32,011 nucleotides of DNA from Candidatus Aquidulcis sp. (lineage in GTDB: Bacteria; Chloroflexota; Anaerolineae; UBA4142), in NCBI GenBank assembly GCA_020723345.1, contig DYJA01000070.1, positions 1 through 32,011 on the forward strand, in the 5' to 3' direction. Position numbers and translations under genes: made by a program. Within the stretch, counting starts at the first letter, position 1; each line of letters starts with the position of its first letter. Positions 3,342-14,031 of the stretch are shown piece by piece. The notes under the pieces were generated by a model. It did not search any database. It had not been told where the DNA came from and worked only from the letters and a program-made list of their open reading frames with translations.

Positions 3342-3779
3342 CTACGCCGCGGCTTCACCCGCGCTGACTTTGGGTCGCTTGGCGCCGTACTTGGAACGAC
3401 CCTTGCGGCGTTTTTCGACGCCGGTCGTGTCCAACGCGCCGCGCACGATGTGATAGCGCACGCCCGGCAAGTCCTTCACGCGGCCGCCGCGAATCAACAC
3501 GACCGAGTGTTCTTGCAATTGGTGTCCTTCGCCCGGAATGTACGCCGTGACTTCGATGCCGTTGGTCAGGCGCACGCGCGCGATTTTCCGCAACGCCGAG
3601 TTTGGTTTCTTGGGCGTCATCGTGCGGACGATCGTGCAGACGCCGCGTTTCAAGGGCGAGCCCTTGCCGCGCTCTTGCTTGTTGCGGAGCGTGTTGAGCG
3701 TAAAGCGCAACGCGGGCGCTTTGGTCTTTTTCCCTTGTGGTTTGCGACCCTTGCGGATCAATTGATTGATCGTTGGCAC
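3342..3779 (-). CDS. rpsL: Small ribosomal subunit protein S12
   Basis: S12 lines the decoding centre and is the classic site of streptomycin-resistance mutations. The protein is 145 residues, starting [13 protein letters not shown]. It has the conserved loops [17 protein letters not shown] and [17 protein letters not shown]; both lysines linked to streptomycin resistance are wild type. The C-terminus extends with an alanine-rich GEAAA tail. The start is a GTG at 3779 with a strong GGAGGA Shine-Dalgarno (3786-3791). It is the first gene of the str operon, behind a leader of about 416 nt. Confidence 0.98.
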
Positions 3780-4240: not shown

Positions 4241-4263
4241 AGGACAATTTTCAAAATTGTCCT
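4241..4263. terminator. Perfect 11-bp palindrome at the rpoC stop codon
   Basis: AGGACAATTTT (4241-4251), a single C, then AAAATTGTCCT (4253-4263) form a perfect inverted repeat. It overlaps the rpoC TAG and lies about 46-68 bases upstream of the predicted str transcription start. It may end or stabilise the rpoC transcript, but no U-tract follows, so it is not a classic intrinsic terminator. It may also act as AT-rich upstream promoter DNA. Confidence 0.5.
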
Positions 4264-7200
4264 ATCCCGCCTCCGGCTCTTCCGAAATGTCGTCAACCGT
4301 GACGGTCGGCACGGGACCGATGTCGAGCGGCAGGGCTTCGGGATGGAAACCGCTGCCAACCGGGATCAACTTGCCGAGAATGACGTTCTCTTTCAACCCG
4401 CGCAACTGATCGACGCGACCGCGTACGGCGGCATCGGTCAGAACGCGCGAAGTTTCCTGGAACGACGCGGCGGCAAGGAACGATTCGGTCGCAAGCGCGG
4501 AACGTGTCAAGCCGAGCAGAATCGGTTGCGCGGTGGACGGATTGCCACCGGCTTCGGTCACTTTGGCGTTGCGTTCGTTGAACGCCTTGCGGTCGAGAAT
4601 TTCACCCGGCAGCAAGTCAGTATCGCCGGAACTGCGGACGCGCACGCGGCGCAGCATCTGGCTGACGATGATCTCGATGTGTTTGTCGTGAATGTTCACA
4701 CCTTGCGAGCGATAAACGTTCTGCACTTCTTCCAGCAAGTACAGCTCGCACGCGTCTTTGCCGAGAATCCGCAGAATCTCGCGCGGATTTTTCGGTCCGT
4801 CGGTCAACTGATCGCCGGCTTGGACGGCTTGTCCGTCTTCCACGCGAATGCGCGCCGCCGCCGACACTTCGTACTCCGCTTCGTCATGAATCTCGCGACG
4901 AAGCGTGATCAGCCCTTTTTCGACCATCGCCGTACCGGAGTTCTTCGCGACGATTGCCTCGTCGCCCTTGGCGATCACTTGCCCTTGCTCGACTTCCTCA
5001 TCGTCTTTGATCGCGGCTTTGGTCCCGCGCGGCAAGGCATACTCGTCCTGCTCGACGCGCGTGTTGGCGAGGCGGAGTTTGCGTTCGTCGCCTTCGGTAT
5101 AGATCTGAACGACGCCGTCAATCTCTGCCATCAACGCTTCGCCTTTCGGATCGCGCGCTTCGAACAACTCTTCGACGCGCGGCAGACCGCTGGTGATGTC
5201 TTCCACGCCCGCGACGCCGCCGGTGTGGAACGTGCGGAGCGTCAACTGCGTGCCCGGTTCGCCGATGGACTGCGCGGCGATGATGCCAACCGCTTCGCCG
5301 ATGGTGATCAAGCCACCGCGCGCGAGATCGCGCCCGTAGCATTTGGCGCACAAACCGTGCCGCGCTTCGCAGGTCAGCGGACTGCGGACGAAGGCGCGCG
5401 GCGCTTTGGCTTTTTCGACCGGCGCCCAGTTTTCTTCGGTGATCATCTCGCCCGCCGGAATGAGCACAGTGTCATTCTTGGGATCGACAATCGCCGCGGC
5501 GGCGATGCGTCCGGTCACGCGCTCGGCGAACGTTTCGCCGGTGCGCTCTTTGGAATTCGCGTCGATCCACACGCCCGCGCTCGTGCCGCAATCGTCTTCG
5601 GTGATGATGACTTCTTGCGCGACGTCGACGAGGCGGCGCGTCAAGTAACCGGCGTCGGCGGTGCGGAGCGCGGTATCGGCGAGACCTTTGCGCGCGCCGT
5701 GCGTCGAAATGAAATATTCGAGCGCGGTCAGTCCTTCGCGGAAATTCGACTTGATCGGCAGCGCGATGATGCGTCCCGCCGGATCCGCCATCAAGCCGCG
5801 CATTCCGGCGAGTTGGCGAATCGGTTGAAAGCCACCTTTGGTCGCGCCCGAGTTCGCCATCACGCTAATCGGCGACGCGGCGCGCATTCCTTTTGCGACC
5901 GCTTCGGTGACCGATTCCGTCGCTTCCGTCCAGAGTTCGACGGTCTTGACGTATTGTTCTTCTTCGGTGATCAAGCCCTTGCGGAATTGCTGTTCGACTT
6001 CGTGGACTTTGGTCGTGATGCGATCCAGAATCACTTGCTTTTCGTTCGGGACGGTGATGTCGTCAATCGCGATGGTGAGACCGCTGCGCGTCGCGTACTT
6101 AAAGCCGATTTCCTTGACCTTGTCCACGACGTCGGCGGTTTTTTCCGAACCCATTTTGGCGTACACTTCCGCGACGAGTTCTTTCAAGCGTTTCTTGTCA
6201 AGTGTGTCGTTGACGAAGCGCACTTCGGGCGGCAGAATTTCATTGAAGAAAACGCGACCGACCGTCGTCTCAAAGAGATCGCCTTTTTTCCTCGCGCCTT
6301 TGGGAATGCGCTGGCACGTCTCTGAATCGAACGACAATCTGATTTTGGCGTGAATTTCGACGTGACCCAGATCGTACGCGAGCGCGACTTCGTCCGGCGA
6401 GAAAAACACTTTGCCTTCGCCGCGTTCGCCGGGTTTTTCCATCGTCAGGTAGAACACGCCGAGTACCATGTCCTTCGTCGGCTCGACAATCGGCTCGCCC
6501 GACGCGGGTTTCAACAAGTTGTGCGACGCGAGCATGAACTTGCGCGCTTCGTCTTTCGCGGCTTCGGAGAGCGGCACGTGTACCGCCATCTGATCGCCGT
6601 CAAAGTCCGCGTTGAACGCCGCGCAGACGAGCGGGTGAATTTGGATCGCGCTGCCTTCGACCAAGATCACTTCGAACGCCTGAATGCCAAGGCGGTGCAG
6701 CGTCGGCGCGCGGTTCAGGAGCACGGGATGGTTCTTGATGATCTCTTCGAGCACGTCCCAAACTTCCGACGAGCCGCGATCCACCAACCGTTTTGCCGAT
6801 TTGATGTTGTGCGCGTAGTTGTATTCGACCAACTTTCGCATCACGAACGGCTTGAACAATTCGAGTGCCATCCCTTTCGGCAAACCGCACTGATGCAATT
6901 TCAAATGCGGACCGACGACGATCACGGAACGCCCGGAATAATCGACGCGCTTGCCGAGCAGGTTGCGGCGAAAACGACCTTGCTTGCCTTTGAGCAAATC
7001 GGACAGCGATTTCAGTTTGCGCTGACCGCGCGCGCTGACTGCTTTGCCGCGCGACGAATTGTCGATCAACGAGTCCACGGCTTCTTGCAGCATCCGTTTT
7101 TCATTGTTGACGATCACTTCGGGCGCGCCGAGTTCGAGCAAGCGGCGCAAGCGATTGTTGCGATTGATCACGCGGCGATACAAGTCGTTCAAGTCCGACG

Positions 7201-8485
7201 TCGCGAAACGTCCGCCGTCGAGTTGCACCATCGGGCGCAGGTCGGGCGGAATGACGGGCAGGACAGTCAGCACCATCCATTCGGGACGATTGCCCGCGCG
7301 GCGCAGCGCTTCGACGACGCGCAACCGCTTGATTTCCTTTTTCTTTTGCTGTTTCGATTTCGTCGCGCGAATCGTCGTGCGGAGCGTCTGTGAAAGTTGT
7401 TCCAGATCGACGCCCTTGAGAATTTCGTAGATCGCTTCCGCGCCCATCGCGGCTTCAAAGAGCGTGCCCCATTTTTCGCGCATCTCGGCGTAGCGCGCTT
7501 CGTTGATAATTTCGCCGACGCGGATCGCTTTCAGTTCGTCCATTTTTTCGTCGTGCGCGGTGTGAACCTTTTCCGTCTGCGCGTCGAGTTTCTGGCGAAT
7601 CTTGGCGGACTCGTCGTTCAGCGCTTGCTTCTTTTGCTCTTTTTCCGCGTCGAGCAGCAAACGGCGGTCGGATTCTTTGGCGCGAATATCTTTTTCGATC
7701 TCGGCAAGGTGCGCCTGCACGAGTTCGTTCAGTCGTTTGCGATGTTTCGCCGCGACGGTTTCGCCTTCGTCCGCGACAATCTCGTCCGTCGGTTCGAAGA
7801 CAATCGCCTTGCGAATTTCCGATCCCTTCGCCTCCTCGATCCGATTTTCCAATTTCTTGGCGATGCTGACGATCTGATCGGTCTTGTCCGCGAGTTGCTC
7901 TTCGAGTTTGCCGGTCGCCGCTTCGGTCTTGCGCGTGAGCGCGTCGATCTCTTTTTCGTATTGCTTTTCGAGTTCTTCGATTTCCGCTTCGGCTTTCAGT
8001 TCGATTTCCGCGACCTTGTTCTGCGTTTCCTTACTGAGCCGCTGCATCATCCGTTTGCGCGCGTCTTCGTCCACTTTCATCACGATGTACTGCGCGAAAT
8101 ACAAAACGCGTTCGAGCGCGCGCGGCGACAGATCGAGAATCAAGCCGATGCGCGAAGGCACGCCGCGCACGTACCACAAGTGCGACACCGGCGACGCGAG
8201 TTCGATGTGTCCCATCCGTTCGCGGCGGACGCGCGCGGGCGCGACTTGCACGCCGCACTTGTCGCAGATTATGCCGCGATTGCGAATCTTTTTGTACTTG
8301 CCGCACGCACATTCCCAATCGCGCTGGGGTCCGAAGATCCGTTCGTCGAACAAGCCGTCGCGTTCGGGGCGCAGCGTGCGATAGTTGATCGTTTCCGGTT
8401 TTTGAACTTCGCCGTACGACCACGCTCGAATCGTATCGGGGGACGCTAAACTGACGCGCATCGCGCGAAAATCTTTGAGTTCCAT
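4262..8485 (-). CDS. rpoC: RNA polymerase beta' subunit
   Basis: This is the catalytic subunit of RNA polymerase, about 1407 residues. The N-terminal zinc site has Cys at 59, 61, 74 and 77. The catalytic motif NADFDGD (625-631) supplies the three Mg-binding aspartates. The second zinc cluster ([11 protein letters not shown]) and the trigger-loop region are present downstream. Residues of about 142-335 are a highly charged, Lys/Glu-rich coiled-coil insertion before the conserved [15 protein letters not shown] segment, where Thermus-type enzymes also carry a large non-conserved domain. I chose the ATG at 8485 because GGAG (8491-8494) is five bases upstream; a GTG at 8491 would overlap that site. 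It follows rpoB. Confidence 0.98.
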
Positions 8486-8509
8486 TGTCACTCCACTTTA
8501 TCGAAGAAA

Positions 8510-8562: not shown

Positions 8563-11500
8563 TTATTCCCCGCCCTTCACTTCGCCATCGTCTGAACGTT
8601 TGCCGCGGCGACGCGCACCGCCGGTGATCCGTTCACCGCGTGCAAAACGTTCGCGGCGTTCGCGCATCAAATCGCGTTCGGTCCTCGGCGCGCCTTCGTG
8701 GAACAAACCGCCGCCGCCCATGCTCGGCGTGCGCTCTTCGCTTTCTTCCTTGCCAAACGTCATCTTCTCGCCGTCGGTGTTGAAGACTTCGACGCCCAAA
8801 CCAAGCGACTGCAATTCTTTGACGAGCACGCGGAACGATTCGGGCACGCCGGGTTCCAGAATTTCTTCGCCCTTGACGATCGCTTCGTACGTCTTGACGC
8901 GTCCGGTCACATCGTCCGATTTGACGGTGAGCATTTCTTGGAGCGTGTGCGCCGCGCCATATGCTTCGAGCGCCCACACTTCCATTTCGCCAAAGCGCTG
9001 CCCGCCGAATTGCGCCTTGCCGCCCAGCGGTTGCTGCGTGACGAGCGAGTACGGTCCCGTCGAGCGCGCGTGGACTTTGTCTTCGACCAAGTGCGCGAGT
9101 TTCATCATGTAAATCACGCCGATGGTCACGGGTTGATCGTACGCTATCCCCGTTTTGCCATCAATCAAGGTCAACTTGCCGGAGATCGGCGATGGCACTT
9201 TGAGTTCTTGGCTGATGCGATCAATTTCGGCGCGCAATTGCTCTTCGCTCAATTTTTCCGATGGCTTGTGGTCGTACGTTTCGAGCCACAGCCGATAGCA
9301 CGCGGTCCGCGCGAGTTTATCGCTCGCGACGCGCTCGTCCATCGTGCGCTCGTCTTCCTCAAACGACAAGAGCGCATCGGGATCGTAACTTTTTTCTTTC
9401 AACCACGCGCGCAACACCTGACGCCGCGCGTACACGCGATCGGTCGTGAGTTTGCGGCGTTCGGCATCTTTCAACCACTCGTGCAAGTAGAGCGCGCGCG
9501 CTTCGTCGTCATTCATCAAATCGTCGAGATTGTATTCTTGTTCCTTGAGCCAAACCCACGCGCGGTTCGTCGCTTCGAGCCACGCCTGGTCGATCAACCA
9601 CGCGCGCGAAAGTTCCGCGCTGATTTCGTTTTCGTCCGCGCCGTCGAACACTGGCGAGACGACTTTGAAACCCAAACGATCCGCCGCCCAACCCAAGTGC
9701 GTTTCCAAAATTTGTCCGATGTTCATACGCGCGGGCACGCCGAGCGGATTCAGGATGATGTCGACCGGCGTCCCGTCTTCGAGGTACGGCATATCTTGAA
9801 CCGGCACGACTTTGGAAATGACGCCCTTGTTGCCGTGCCGCCCCGCCATCTTGTCGCCTTCGGTGATCTTGCGTTGCTGCGCGATCGCGACGCGCACGAG
9901 TTTGTCGACGCCTGCGGGTAATTCGTGATGTTCGTCGCGCGTGAACACGCGCACATCTACAACTTTGCCGCGCTCGCCGTGCGGCAAGCGCATCGACGAA
10001 TCTTTCACCTCGCGCGCTTTTTCGCCAAAGATCGCGCGCAGCAGTTTTTCTTCCGGCGTGAGATCGGTTTCGCCTTTCGGCGTAATCTTGCCGACGAGAA
10101 TGTCGCCGGGGCCCACTTCCGCGCCGATGCGAATGATGCCTTCTTCGTCCAAGTCCTTCAACACGTCTTCGCCGACGTTCGGAATGTCGCGCGTAATTTC
10201 TTCGGGACCGAGTTTCGTATCGCGCGCTTCGATCTCGTGTTTTTCGATGTGGATGCTGGAGAACTTGTCCTGGTGCGCCATCCGCTCGCTGATCAAGATC
10301 GCGTCTTCGTAATTGCCGCCTTCCCAACTCATAAACGCGACGACGACATTTTGTCCCAGCGCGATTTGTCCCTGGTCGGTCGAAGAACTATCCGCGATGA
10401 CCTGTCCCTTTTTTACTTTCTGACCGCGCGACGCAATCGGGCGCTGATCGATGCAGGTCGATTGATTGGAACGATTGTATTTCCGCAAGACGTAGACGTG
10501 ATCTTTTTTGCCGCTGCGGACTTTGATCTCTTTCGCCGTCACGCTGACGACTTCGCCATCTTCTTCCGCGACGACGACTTGACCCGAATCGAGCGCGGCT
10601 TGCATTTCCATGCCCGTGCCGACGACCGGCGCTTCGGGACGCAGCAGCGGCACCGCCTGGCGCTGCATGTTCGAACCCATCAACGCGCGGTTCGCGTCGT
10701 CGTGTTCGAGAAATGGAATGAGCGCGGCAGACACGCCGACGATCTGTTTTGGCGACACGTCGAGGTACTGCACGCGATCCGATGAATCGGTAAGGAATTG
10801 TTGACGGCGGCGAATCTCGACGCGCTTGTCGACGAATTGGTGCAAGTGATCGAGGCGCGCGTTCGCTTGCGCGACGGTGTGCCGATCTTCTTCGTCCGCC
10901 GCGAGGTAGACGATTTCGTCGGTCGCGTACGCGCGCACCGAAATCTCTTCGTATTTCTTCAGCGCGGCGATTTTCGCCGCCAGCGCTTCGTCAACCACCG
11001 TTTCGGCTTTCGCGATGACTTTGTTCGAATCGGGATCGCTGATGTCCTCGCGCAAGATGCGCCCGAGCAAAACTTTTTTGTCGTTCGGCACAGTGTTCTT
11101 GACGATGCGGTACGGCGTCTCGATGAAACCGAATTCGTTGATCTGCGCGTACGTCGCCAGACGCCCAATCAAACCGATGTTCGGACCTTCGGGCGTTTCA
11201 ATCGGGCAGATGCGACCATAGTGCGAGTGATGCACGTCGCGCACGTCAAAGCCCGCGCGTTCGCGACGCAAGCCGCCGGGACCCAAAGCCGACAGCGTGC
11301 GCTTGTGCGTCAGTTCGTCGAGCGGATTTGTCTGCTGCATGAATTGGGACAACTGCGAGCCGCCGAAAAATTCGCGCATCGCCGCGACGACGGGACGAAT
11401 GTTGATCAAGTTGATCGCGGTCATCTGTTCCGGATCGCGGACGCTCATGCGTTCGCGCACGACGCGCTCCAAACGCAGCAAGCCGATCCGCAAATGATTC

Positions 11501-12582
11501 TGAATCAGTTCGCCCACCGTCTTGACGCGGCGATTGCCGAGGTGGTCAATATCGTCGCCGCCTTCGATGCCGTTGTTGATCAAAATCATGTGCTCGATCA
11601 CTTTGACCAAATCGTCGGCGCGCAGAATGCGTTCGGGCGGCAATTGATCGACGGGAACGTCCGTGCCGTACAAACGTCGATTCAGTTTGTGGCGACCGAC
11701 TTTGCCCAGATCGTAACGGCGCTGCGTGAAGAGCAAAGTCGTCAAAAAGGTCTTGGCGTTGTCGAGCGTCGGCGGATCACCGGGACGAAGTTTCTTGTAA
11801 AACTCCATCAGCGCTTCGTCGATGCTGTTCATCTTGGGCGACTCTTTCTCGAGCGTCGTGCTGATGTATTCGTGCTCGGAGTTGTTGTCTGCGCCCGCGA
11901 AGATGTTGATGATTCCTTCGTCGGTGCCATCGCCCACGCCGACGGCTTTGAGGAGCATCGTGACCGGAATCTTGCGCTTGCGGTCGACTTTGACGGAGAG
12001 AATATCGCGCTTGCTCGTTTCAAATTCGAGCCACGCGCCGCGATTCGGGATGAGTTTCGCCGAGCAGAGGACGCGTCCGGTCGCGCGGTCTTCGCCCGCG
12101 CTGAAATAAACGCCCGGCGAGCGAATCAACTGCGAGACGACGACGCGCTCCGCGCCGTTGATGACGAAAGTACCGTGTTCGGTCATCAACGGGAAATCGC
12201 CCATGTAGACTTCTTGCGTGGACGTTTCGCCGTTCAGATTATTGATCAGCGCGACTTTGAGGTGCAGTGGCGCGGCGAAGGTCATATCCATTTCGCGGCA
12301 CTCGGCTTCAGAATATTTCGGCTCGCTGAACCAGTACGTCAAGTTCAGTTTGCGCGCGATATCGTTATCGCCCGGAAAATAGAGCGAATATTCCTTGTTG
12401 AACGATTCGATCGGGGTGATTTCGTCGAAGAGTTCGCGCAGACCTTCGGTCTTGAACCACTCGAACGACTCGAGTTGAACCTTGATGAGGGTGGGGATGC
12501 TGTGAACGTCGGGGATACGCGCATACGACTTTTGGTCAGGCATCAGCGTATTGACAAGGGTGGACATGGTCAATTGGCTCAT
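8563..12582 (-). CDS. rpoB: RNA polymerase beta subunit
   Basis: The beta subunit has 1339 residues, close to the E. coli length, and ends in a basic [11 protein letters not shown] tail. Conserved blocks include [12 protein letters not shown], the [14 protein letters not shown] segment, [11 protein letters not shown] and [19 protein letters not shown]. The rifampicin pocket differs from E. coli: positions equivalent to D516, N518 and R529 read Q, T and T. Between about 9255 and 9612 there is a Trp-rich insert with repeated WL(K/E)-type helices near the place of the E. coli dispensable region 2. The ATG at 12582 has a GAGGAG Shine-Dalgarno. It is transcribed with rpoC; rplJ/rplL are not adjacent in this window. 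Confidence 0.98.
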
Positions 12583-13006
12583 TCGCTACACTCCTCAAAA
12601 GGCATTCGACGCGCCGCGCTCATTGGTGACTCGCCGATAATGACATAACGGCGAGCGTGCAAGACGCGTAAATGCGGGACAAGAGGGCAGCGATGCCCAC
12701 CTGCCGCTGATTGAAAAACAGATTGATTTGGCTTTAACGGTGGAGAGGCGGGATTGGAGTTCGCTAGCATTGACCGGTCAACGCGCGAACTCCCTCTCGG
12801 AAAGCGAGGGCAGAAGCAAGCGCTAACGATGCTTCAAGCGAGGCAAGCAAGGAGGAAGGAAAAAATGCAAGTGTCCACCAAACGCGGCGCGGCAGGCGAA
12901 GAAAAGAGAAAGAAAACGATAATCTGACCTGCCACTCGACAACAAAAAATTACCGACCGCGACCGCCCGAAATGCCTCGCGCCCGTGCCATGCTATCCGT
13001 AAGCAA
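12583..13006 (-). promoter_or_regulatory. Long structured 5' leader of rpoBC
   Basis: About 424 bases lie between the predicted start and rpoB, with no convincing gene. Stems seen: CTCGCCG/CGGCGAG (12630-12655); GGGCA/TGCCC with a tetraloop (12685-12698); GGAGTTCGC/GCGAACTCC (12756-12764 with 12785-12793), enclosing the 12-base palindrome TTGACCGGTCAA (12770-12781); and CCCTC/GAGGG (12792-12810). The nested stem at 12756-12793 is the strongest. It could bind an autoregulator or a termination factor, but this is inference. Confidence 0.5.
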
Positions 13007-13012
13007 GAGGAC

Positions 13013-13041
13013 ATTATAGAGGCAAAAGCGGACTGTGTCAA
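13013..13041 (-). promoter_or_regulatory. Full-consensus sigma-70-type promoter for rpoBC
   Basis: On the minus strand, TTGACA (13041-13036), 17 bases, TATAAT (13018-13013), all twelve positions consensus. An AT-rich hairpin AATTTT/AAAATT (13046-13061) lies directly upstream of the -35 box in UP-element position. The predicted start is near 13006. Confidence 0.8.
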
Positions 13042-13077
13042 GTTTAATTTTCGTTAAAATTCGCCCATCAAAGCCGA

Positions 13078-13203
13078 TTAGCCAAAATACATTTTCTCCG
13101 TCAGCGCCAAGATCACGCAACCGAAGATGATCACGTTGATCAGCGCGAGCAGCGCGATAAAGAACCAGTGCCGATAAGTTAGCGCGTTTGGATTGTCGCT
13201 CAT
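13078..13203 (-). CDS. 41-residue single-span membrane protein
   Basis: A very short gene downstream of birA on the same strand. The ATG at 13203 has a perfect GGAGG (13210-13214) six bases upstream, and the Shine-Dalgarno starts within about ten bases of the birA stop. The protein begins MSDNPNALTYRHW, followed by one hydrophobic helix (about residues 13-34, rich in Ile/Leu/Ala/Val), then EKMYFG. The topology suggests a single inner-membrane span with a short polar N-terminus. The rpoBC promoter lies just beyond its stop. I do not recognise a family. The evidence is the strong ribosome binding site, the coherent membrane helix and the operon position. Confidence 0.65.
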   Translation of the reverse strand: MSDNPNALTYRHWFFIALLALINVIIFGCVILALTEKMYFG

Positions 13204-13224
13204 CGTTTTCCTCCAAGCTCGAGA

Positions 13225-14031
13225 TTAGTGATTCGACAGCGTAACGTCACCTGCCAGCAATCGTTCAATTGAACCATCGGCGCGCCGCAGGAGGAGCGCG
13301 CCGTTCTCGTCCGCGTCAACCGCGATGCCTTCAGCGATCCCCTGCGCGGTCTGTGCGCGCACGGGTTGCCCCAAAGTGGCGAGCCGATTTTTGTATTCGT
13401 CGCGCAAATCTGCCCCTGCGCGCAGACGCAAATAGTACGCTTCGGTTGCGCGCAGGATGGCGCGCGCGAGTTGCGCGCGCGGAAAGGGCTGCCCAAGTTC
13501 GTCGGCGATGGTCGTCGCGTCGCGCGGAATTCCTTCCACTGTCGCCGCCGCGAAATTCACGTTGATGCCGACGCCCACGATCACGTACTCCAGCTTCTCG
13601 CCGACAATTCCCGATTCCGCCAAAATGCCTGCGCACTTCTTGCCGCGCACAAGCAAATCGTTGGGCCATTTGATTTGCGCGGGCAAACCCGTCTCCGCGC
13701 GAAGCGCGTCGCACGCGCCGAGCGCAATAGCAATCGTGACGCGCGCGGCTTGCGCGGGTGTCAGATCGGGGCGCAAGATCAGCGACATCAACAGGGACGA
13801 CCGCGCGGGCGCGACCCAGGATCGTCCCAGGCGTCCGCGCCCCGCGCTTTGCTCATCCGTGATCACGAGCGTGCCTTCCGGCTCGCCCGCATCCGCGAGT
13901 TGCCGCGCCGCGTCATTCGTCGATCCGATCCGTTCGTAATAGACGACGCGTCGCCCCAGCACGCGCGTCGTCAAATCGCGTTGGAGTATCTCCGCCGACA
14001 ATTTGTCGTTTATCATTTGTTCATCCATCAT
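13225..14031 (-). CDS. birA: Biotin--[acetyl-CoA-carboxylase] ligase (class I BirA)
   Basis: The enzyme joins biotin to the carrier lysine of biotin-dependent carboxylases through biotinyl-AMP. The 268 residues contain the catalytic domain only. The biotin/ATP-binding GRGRLGRSW lies at about 64-72, KWPNDLL at 121-127 and the catalytic lysine in GKKCAGIL at about 132. The short C-terminal SH3-like cap follows. No N-terminal winged helix is present, so it should not act as a repressor. Its likely substrate is the carrier protein encoded at 29276-29773. The exact start is uncertain: ATGs at 14031, 14028 and 14016 are in frame, and the first codons overlap a 7-base repeat array. The proposed promoter would give an almost leaderless mRNA. 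Confidence 0.95.
   Translation of the reverse strand: MMDEQMINDKLSAEILQRDLTTRVLGRRVVYYERIGSTNDAARQLADAGEPEGTLVITDEQSAGRGRLGRSWVAPARSSLLMSLILRPDLTPAQAARVTIAIALGACDALRAETGLPAQIKWPNDLLVRGKKCAGILAESGIVGEKLEYVIVGVGINVNFAAATVEGIPRDATTIADELGQPFPRAQLARAILRATEAYYLRLRAGADLRDEYKNRLATLGQPVRAQTAQGIAEGIAVDADENGALLLRRADGSIERLLAGDVTLSNH

Follow-up and report, generated by a model that had tools for sequence, protein, structure and literature searches.

The rpoBC locus

The window analysed here, the whole stretch of 32,011 nucleotides, belongs to a 6.34-Mb draft genome of Candidatus Aquidulcis sp. (Chloroflexota). Promoter, leader, rpoB and rpoC all lie on its minus strand, and Pfam recognised the genes of S7 and EF-G downstream of rpoC. 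The relatives of RpoB came chiefly from Chloroflexota, several of them labelled Anaerolineae; rplL was found on a contig separate from that of rpoBC. Judged by sequence comparison, the region upstream of rpoB contains the promoter of the rpoBC operon of one Chloroflexota family, together with the operon's 5′ leader RNA. The features of the locus are:

4262 to 8491, minus strand: rpoC (Pfam RNA_pol_Rpb1 domains)
8563 to 12582, minus strand: rpoB (Pfam RNA_pol_Rpb2 domains)
12591 to 12596, minus strand: Shine-Dalgarno-like GAGGAG of rpoB (from the sequence)
12683 to 12700, minus strand: small hairpin with hexaloop NNNGNN closed by GC/GC (covariation)
12743 to 12798, minus strand: central bulged stem, GAGAG-GGAGUUC / GAACUCC-8-nt bulge-CUCUC (covariation, model R1)
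12748 to 12755, minus strand: bulge AAUCCCGC on the 3′ side of the central stem, with two invariant Cs (family alignment)
12838 to 12845, minus strand: recurring motif TGCCTCGC, complementary to 12973-12980
12944 to 12949, minus strand: U-run directly 3′ of the promoter-proximal hairpin, terminator- or pause-like (five Ts invariant in 14/14)
12954 to 12985, minus strand: promoter-proximal hairpin with a conserved G.G mismatch, CGGGCGCGA ... UCGCGGUCG (fold, model R2)
12973 to 12980, minus strand: GCGAGGCA, complementary to the motif at 12838-12845 (inverted repeat)
13003 to 13006, minus strand: start-site motif TTGC, positions 7-10 after the -10 box (shared by rpoB promoters of the phylum)
13013 to 13018, minus strand: -10 hexamer TATAAT, spacer of 17 (12/12 consensus with the -35)
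13036 to 13041, minus strand: -35 hexamer TTGACA (kept in 13/14 family genomes)
13042 to 13062, minus strand: A/T-rich tract upstream of the -35, UP-element-like (from the sequence; also in relatives)

Promoter and its conservation

The sequence-only reading had described a promoter matching all twelve consensus bases, preceded by an AT-rich element. Both are present: TTGACA-17-TATAAT occupies 13041-13013, the tract lies at 13042-13062, and a similar tract was seen by eye in relatives (L003-L011 among ten genomes). This promoter was the sole site with at least 9/12 matches between 11000 and 14000, where shuffled sequences gave 1.0 ± 1.0 such sites. Genome-wide, the 12/12 pattern occurred at 95 places and a reversed control pattern at none; the rpoB promoter is thus one of 95 such sites and not unique in the genome.

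Conservation was evaluated in 20 genomes of the order, among them 14 of the same family and six of a sister family. A promoter-like site precedes rpoB in 13 of the 14 family genomes, with 376-520 nt from the -35 to the ATG, and the -10 hexamer, 16-17 nt from TTGACA, is TATAAT or close to it (TATACA in L005, TATAAG in L007). In the sister family, rpoB could be located in five of six genomes, and all five carried a 12/12 promoter 300-319 nt upstream. At the scale of the phylum, a site with at most two mismatches preceded 79 of 100 rpoB loci, against 11 of 500 shuffled upstream regions. These 100 loci were drawn from the 110 loci L002-L111, leaving out eight Actinobacteriota, L110 and L083, whose contig ends inside the match; they include L077, labelled a proteobacterium, and three probable duplicates (L032-L034, of L013, L016 and L021), which were dropped after this count. 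Loci having no site with at most two mismatches were likewise dropped from the subsequent leader and motif counts, except that L005 and L007, which keep TTGACA, were restored for the folding-energy and start-site counts. The family locus that has no promoter, L012 (genome G003), entered only the analyses keyed to leader elements. At the expected place of its promoter, right before the 5′ element, stands a palindromic GTAGGGGCGAAG...CTTCGCCCCTAC repeat, so that this genome has seemingly lost or replaced the promoter.

Immediately upstream of the rpoB promoter, a 41-codon ORF at 13204-13082 on the minus strand would encode a small hydrophobic peptide. It had no Pfam match, and no relative was found at E values up to 1 among 18 other family or order loci, some of which have short upstream sequences.

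Folding and coding capacity of the leader

From the predicted start to the ATG of rpoB the leader would measure about 424 nt, the length that the sequence-only reading had given. The place of the promoter is kept in relatives, and it does not point to a start much nearer to rpoB. Folding of the whole leader of the present genome gave z scores of -2.79 or -2.39 in two runs. However, leaders across relatives folded in an ordinary manner: the mean z score was -1.36 for 13 family leaders, the present one included, against -1.06 for their reverse complements; -2.13 against -2.93 in the sister family; and -0.54 against -0.70 for 54 other leaders (six leaders shorter than 80 nt were left out of this comparison). 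We therefore rejected whole-leader folding energy as evidence. The four or more stems noted earlier do appear in the predicted fold, but their number alone is no evidence because family leaders fold about like their reverse complements; what counts is conservation.

The unremarkable global fold fits a reading in which a strong promoter is simply followed by a long, structured but unregulated 5′ UTR inherited by family descent. The following operon on the minus strand agrees with it as well, since it too combines a 12/12 promoter with a leader of about 415 nt, so that long leaders are perhaps common in this genome. That second promoter lies at 4230-4202 on the minus strand, between rpoC and the next minus-strand ORF (3342-3779), a putative rpsL from gene order alone; its leader, about 4195 to 3780, contains inverted repeats by eye. 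We nevertheless hold an ordinary UTR unlikely in view of the elements described below, which are kept between genera of the family even though the intervening sequence is hard to align, and two of which covary.

Rfam models gave no match by cmscan, either in the window at the gathering score or in 12400-13300 at E values up to 5; neither the Lacto-rpoB model (RF01709) nor the L10 leader model matched in either search. A scan for upstream ORFs of at least six codons, starting with ATG or GTG and preceded by a Shine-Dalgarno-like sequence, returned no recurring ORF in the 14 family leaders: nine had none, and those of the other five differ in place and length. A 13-codon ATG ORF overlaps the 5′ element; it was discarded as a leader peptide, as no Shine-Dalgarno-like sequence precedes it and, by eye, its start and frame are not kept in relatives.

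Conserved elements of the leader

Comparison of the family sequences indicates that the leader comprises three conserved elements, two of them with covariation. The first of these two extends a stem singled out by the sequence-only reading at 12756-12793. This is a perfect 9-bp inverted repeat enclosing the 12-base palindrome TTGACCGGTCAA, and it forms the inner part of a 12-bp bulged central stem (12743-12798) conserved in the family. The RNA 12741-12800 folds at -27.8 kcal/mol (z -4.4), a value as low being reached by none of 200 shuffles. In the family alignment 94.2% of the cells are paired, and two pairs and five cells are changed on both sides. The covariation score was reached by 0 of 500 shuffles, while the number of double-change pairs was not significant (167 of 500). 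Sliding the pairing by one column lowered the score from 0.187 to 0.150, and an unforced consensus fold recovered 11 of the 12 pairs. The rows were chosen by the presence of GAGAG and CTCTC, and the invariance of that part is partly by construction. Altogether the central stem shows some covariation. The palindrome itself fared differently: it occurs in the present genome only and in none of the 12 family relatives that have the stem, and it was rejected as a functional site.

The covariance model R1, built on the central stem, matched 13 of the 14 family genomes (L005 has no central stem); at E<0.01 it matched only before rpoB, the second-best matches having E values of 0.115 or worse. In a sample of 199 genomes of the class, where stricter filters made the search less sensitive, R1 retrieved four of the five family members that were matched by R2, the model of the 5′ element, and missed the known copy of G001. 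Outside the family it gave two matches in this sample (E 0.006 and 0.009), about the number expected by chance.

Closer to rpoB, the hexaloop hairpin shows clear covariation, with three of its five pairs and eight cells changed on both sides. The cell count and the covariation score were each reached by 0 of 500 shuffles; sliding the pairing gave a score of at most 0.116, against 0.389 in the true register, and the unforced consensus fold was the same structure. The fourth base of the loop is an invariant G in 11 of 11 rows, rows which were picked by eye and are thus biased towards pairing. L008, L012 and L013 are absent from this alignment: L013 has a degenerate form, and none was seen by eye in the other two. 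Of the 14 family leaders, 9 contain a strict pattern of the hairpin within their final 170 nt, eight of them at the homologous site, compared with 4.6% of shuffles.

The third element, at the 5′ end, is conserved at the level of sequence, without covariation. In the present genome its hairpin folds at -14.4 kcal/mol (z -1.87), an energy that 11 of 200 shuffles equalled or bettered. R2 found its best match before rpoB in 14/14 family genomes, the next match having an E value of 0.013, and in the 199 genomes of the class its five matches were all in family members. No double change was seen in the 10 pairs across the family alignment, pairing was no better than in shuffled sequences (85.0% versus 84.1%), and RNAalifold kept six pairs, none with a double change. 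Just before the U-run, a hairpin of -9 kcal/mol or lower can be drawn in 13 of the 14 family leaders (-3.7 in L005); these are forced folds with no shuffle control, and L002 and L003 use other pairings there.

As best matches, the R1 and R2 elements are thus located in the family genomes only before rpoB. The covariation check in relatives proposed by the sequence-only reading therefore yielded conserved stems together with covariation in two of them, the central stem and the hexaloop hairpin, and not the absence of both.

Possible attenuation and its alternatives

The hairpins kept across relatives suggest that RNA polymerase levels in the cell may be tuned once transcription is under way. 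Weighing the evidence for and against together, our first choice is a new lineage-specific rpoBC leader RNA that most likely acts as an attenuator, a reading to which we give somewhat less than an even chance. The rpoB promoter would fire often and the output of RNA polymerase would be trimmed after initiation. The hairpin and U-run, about 50-57 nt into the predicted transcript, would serve as the first checkpoint by working as an intrinsic terminator or as a strong pause. A pyrimidine-rich stretch with C above G would come next, and further downstream the bulged stem and the hexaloop hairpin would form a sensing part. This part may be bound by RNA polymerase, a Nus factor or a ribosomal protein; alternatively, its fold may govern how long the mRNA lives or how rpoB is translated. 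The system as a whole would probably serve to adjust RNA polymerase supply by feedback, independently of the L10/L12 genes (rplL is on another contig).

Terminator-like hairpins were detected in 49 of 75 Chloroflexota rpoB leaders, whereas the reverse strand gave 8 of 75, and shuffled sequences 101 of 375 (27%); this set leaves out L032-L034, L051 (38 nt) and the loci lacking a site with at most two mismatches. A further 10 rpoB leaders, six of them from one genus, gave 4 of 10 versus 66 of 200 shuffles, with none of 10 on the reverse strand. The earlier proposal of post-initiation control thus stands in part: the leader is conserved and probably regulatory, but the control itself runs ahead of the evidence, given that the 5′ hairpin lacks covariation and that the terminator enrichment of 49/75 falls to 4/10 in the second set.

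Other leaders of the phylum offered related observations. In another family of the class (f53), six genomes have a full-consensus TTGC promoter before rpoC, with a leader of about 85-120 nt. A strict scan of these rpoC leaders (L154-L156, L158-L160) returned a terminator-like hairpin in 4 of 6; the reverse strand gave one in 1 of 6, and shuffled sequences in 5 of 120. The sister family (L016-L020) has a different conserved leader in the last 120 nt before rpoB, consisting of a AACATGCTC...GAGCATGTT hairpin followed by T-rich sequence and of a conserved TATTGTACAC block before the Shine-Dalgarno site. Five rpoB leaders of the Ktedonobacteria type (L049, L053, L060, L062, L063) have a similar terminator-like hairpin in common, AGTAAC...GTTACT or GTTATT, then TTTCTTGTC or TTTATTGTC.

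Complementarity between GCGAGGCA and TGCCTCGC was considered as a long-range switch. Of the 14 family leaders, 9 have the motif [T/C]GCCTC[G/A/C] within the 230 nt that follow the U-run. The proposed pairing did not reach significance, the mean duplex energy being -15.49 for a leader's own pair and -15.55 for cross-species pairs.

Pyrimidines make up 57-70% of the 100 nt that follow the U-run in all 14 family leaders, and C exceeds G there, so that a role of Rho is conceivable. A putative rut site in this stretch would make the attenuation Rho-dependent. This proposal draws on composition, and it is the one to which we assign the lowest probability.

The promoter-proximal place of the 5′ element, its sequence-level conservation with no covariation and its single strong match per family genome would also suit a put- or nut-like signal for antitermination or RNA polymerase modification. 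RNA up to about +57 would load onto the polymerase, which would then read through the 8-kb rpoBC operon. We consider this quite improbable, since a U-run after the hairpin is the opposite signature and, by eye, no boxA-like sequence is common to the phylum beyond the start-site motif.

A more serious alternative to attenuation, still rather less than probable in our opinion, dispenses with premature termination: the bulged stem and the hexaloop hairpin would bind a protein (RNA polymerase or a ribosomal protein) or an RNase, and this binding would set the translation or the decay of rpoB mRNA. It is in keeping with the covarying elements being the two downstream ones, nearer to the start codon, and not the terminator-like one; a separate autogenous control of E. 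coli rpoBC is also mentioned in the excerpted text of a review (PMC10931766). It leaves aside, however, the strong sequence conservation of the promoter-proximal element with its U-run, and the covariation preserves a local stem.

Comparison with known systems

How much RNA polymerase a bacterium makes is a long-standing problem, most of the work on it having been done in E. coli; there rpoBC is linked to genes of ribosomal proteins. Barry in 1980 and Steward and Linn in 1992 reportedly described the attenuator of E. coli rplJL-rpoBC and a possible autogenous control of RNA polymerase. The leader studied here resembles that attenuator in having a candidate terminator between promoter and rpoB. 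The E. coli attenuator separates the rpl genes from rpoBC, according to passages of PMC1242208, whereas here rpoBC is preceded by a long leader and by a full-consensus promoter of its own, with rplL on another contig. A strong promoter of its own and a leader with no Rfam match mean that polymerase-specific control could be studied here apart from the L10/L12 genes.

The Lacto-rpoB RNA motif (RF01709) is, in the excerpts of PMC2864571, likewise a conserved structured RNA, linked to rpoB by its name and restricted to one lineage. That lineage is however the Lactobacillales, and the present leader matched no Rfam family even at E values up to 5. The motif is merely listed in the available portion of PMC6064168. 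Cluster 245, a cyanobacterial rpoBC leader, is a further conserved leader RNA obtained by comparative genomics; the relevant passage of PMC1242208 presents it as the equivalent, within the rplKAJL-rpoBC cluster, of the attenuator of E. coli. In the B. subtilis L10(L12)4 rplJL leader, as outlined in parts of PMC4538822, hairpins and a terminator control an operon of the growth machinery, a control which for rpoBC is our inference. The same text describes three overlapping structures and a kink-turn target in B. subtilis; unlike there, an overlapping antiterminator could not be demonstrated in our leader, and rplL is elsewhere in the genome. Mycobacterial rpoB-rpoC, like the operon described here, has its own promoters, and in M. 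smegmatis transcription of a conserved upstream region lowers expression (excerpts of PMC6181997). That arrangement involves two promoters and an inter-promoter region, as the same excerpts state, whereas one promoter-like site was found here. PMC8388888 and PMC13236596, as far as their excerpts go, do not concern rpoBC leaders. Among the matches listed for rpoBC leaders or attenuation, rpoB initiation and Chloroflexota, mostly open-access and represented by partial text, the present leader and start-site motif were absent.

The start-site motif

The rpoB promoters of the phylum have a short motif in common at the expected start site. At positions 7-10 after the -10 box, the 78 promoters compared have T in 57, T in 50, G in 54 and C in 52. 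YYGC falls within positions 6-10 in 45 of 78, against 0-2 of 78 at four other offsets; because the rows are related species, the 45 are not independent events. As a general promoter feature the motif was rejected for the present genome: YYGC was found in none of 30 distinct other full-consensus promoters sampled from the 95, and exact TTGC in only one of the 95, that of rpoB. Among eight rpoB loci of Actinobacteriota, seven have a promoter-like site (at most three mismatches) and four of these seven carry TTGC in the same place, which hints that the motif may be older than the phylum.

The strict form TTGACA-16/18-TATAAT-N6-TTGC was searched in 400 genomes of the phylum and found at 46 places in 41 genomes; it is a minority form, as most of the 400 have no such place. 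Downstream genes were examined for 30 of the 46, many of them from few genera, and 27 of the 30 promoters stand upstream of RNA polymerase, tRNA, 16S rRNA or EF-Tu-type genes. In detail, 11 precede rpoB, six rpoC (five assigned by Pfam and L156 from its likeness to L155), five tRNAs, three 16S rRNA and two an EF-Tu-type GTPase, with one before YceD and two before other first large ORFs (MFS, MoaC).

From these counts one may imagine a Chloroflexota start-site code for growth-machinery genes, TTGC (YYGC) about 7-10 nt after a full-consensus -10 box marking the promoters of RNA polymerase subunit genes and of some tRNA, rRNA and EF-Tu-type genes, backed by a second control after initiation that an rpoBC leader RNA particular to the lineage would exert. 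We regard this combined scheme as speculative and on balance doubtful. If it were true, initiation at these genes would answer one signal, which might be the supply of the initiating nucleotide or else an initiation factor, and an rpoBC leader RNA of its own would have evolved in at least one family and perhaps in every one. Through the motif, RNA polymerase promoters are connected with some promoters of tRNA, rRNA and EF-Tu-type genes, a connection that can be tested genome-wide in a poorly studied phylum.

The motif was rejected as a hallmark of rRNA promoters: promoter-like sites were found at 19 16S loci, and YYGC stands at the best site in 6 of them, one being that of the present genome. 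About 339 nt upstream of this genome's partial 16S rRNA gene (L208) lies a 12/12 promoter whose -10 box is followed by TCGC at positions 6-9. At L166 and L167, the ORF of the EF-Tu-type GTPase, assigned by Pfam in L166 and from equal spacing in L167, begins about 813 nt downstream of the full-consensus TTGC promoter, a distance that is possibly another very long leader.
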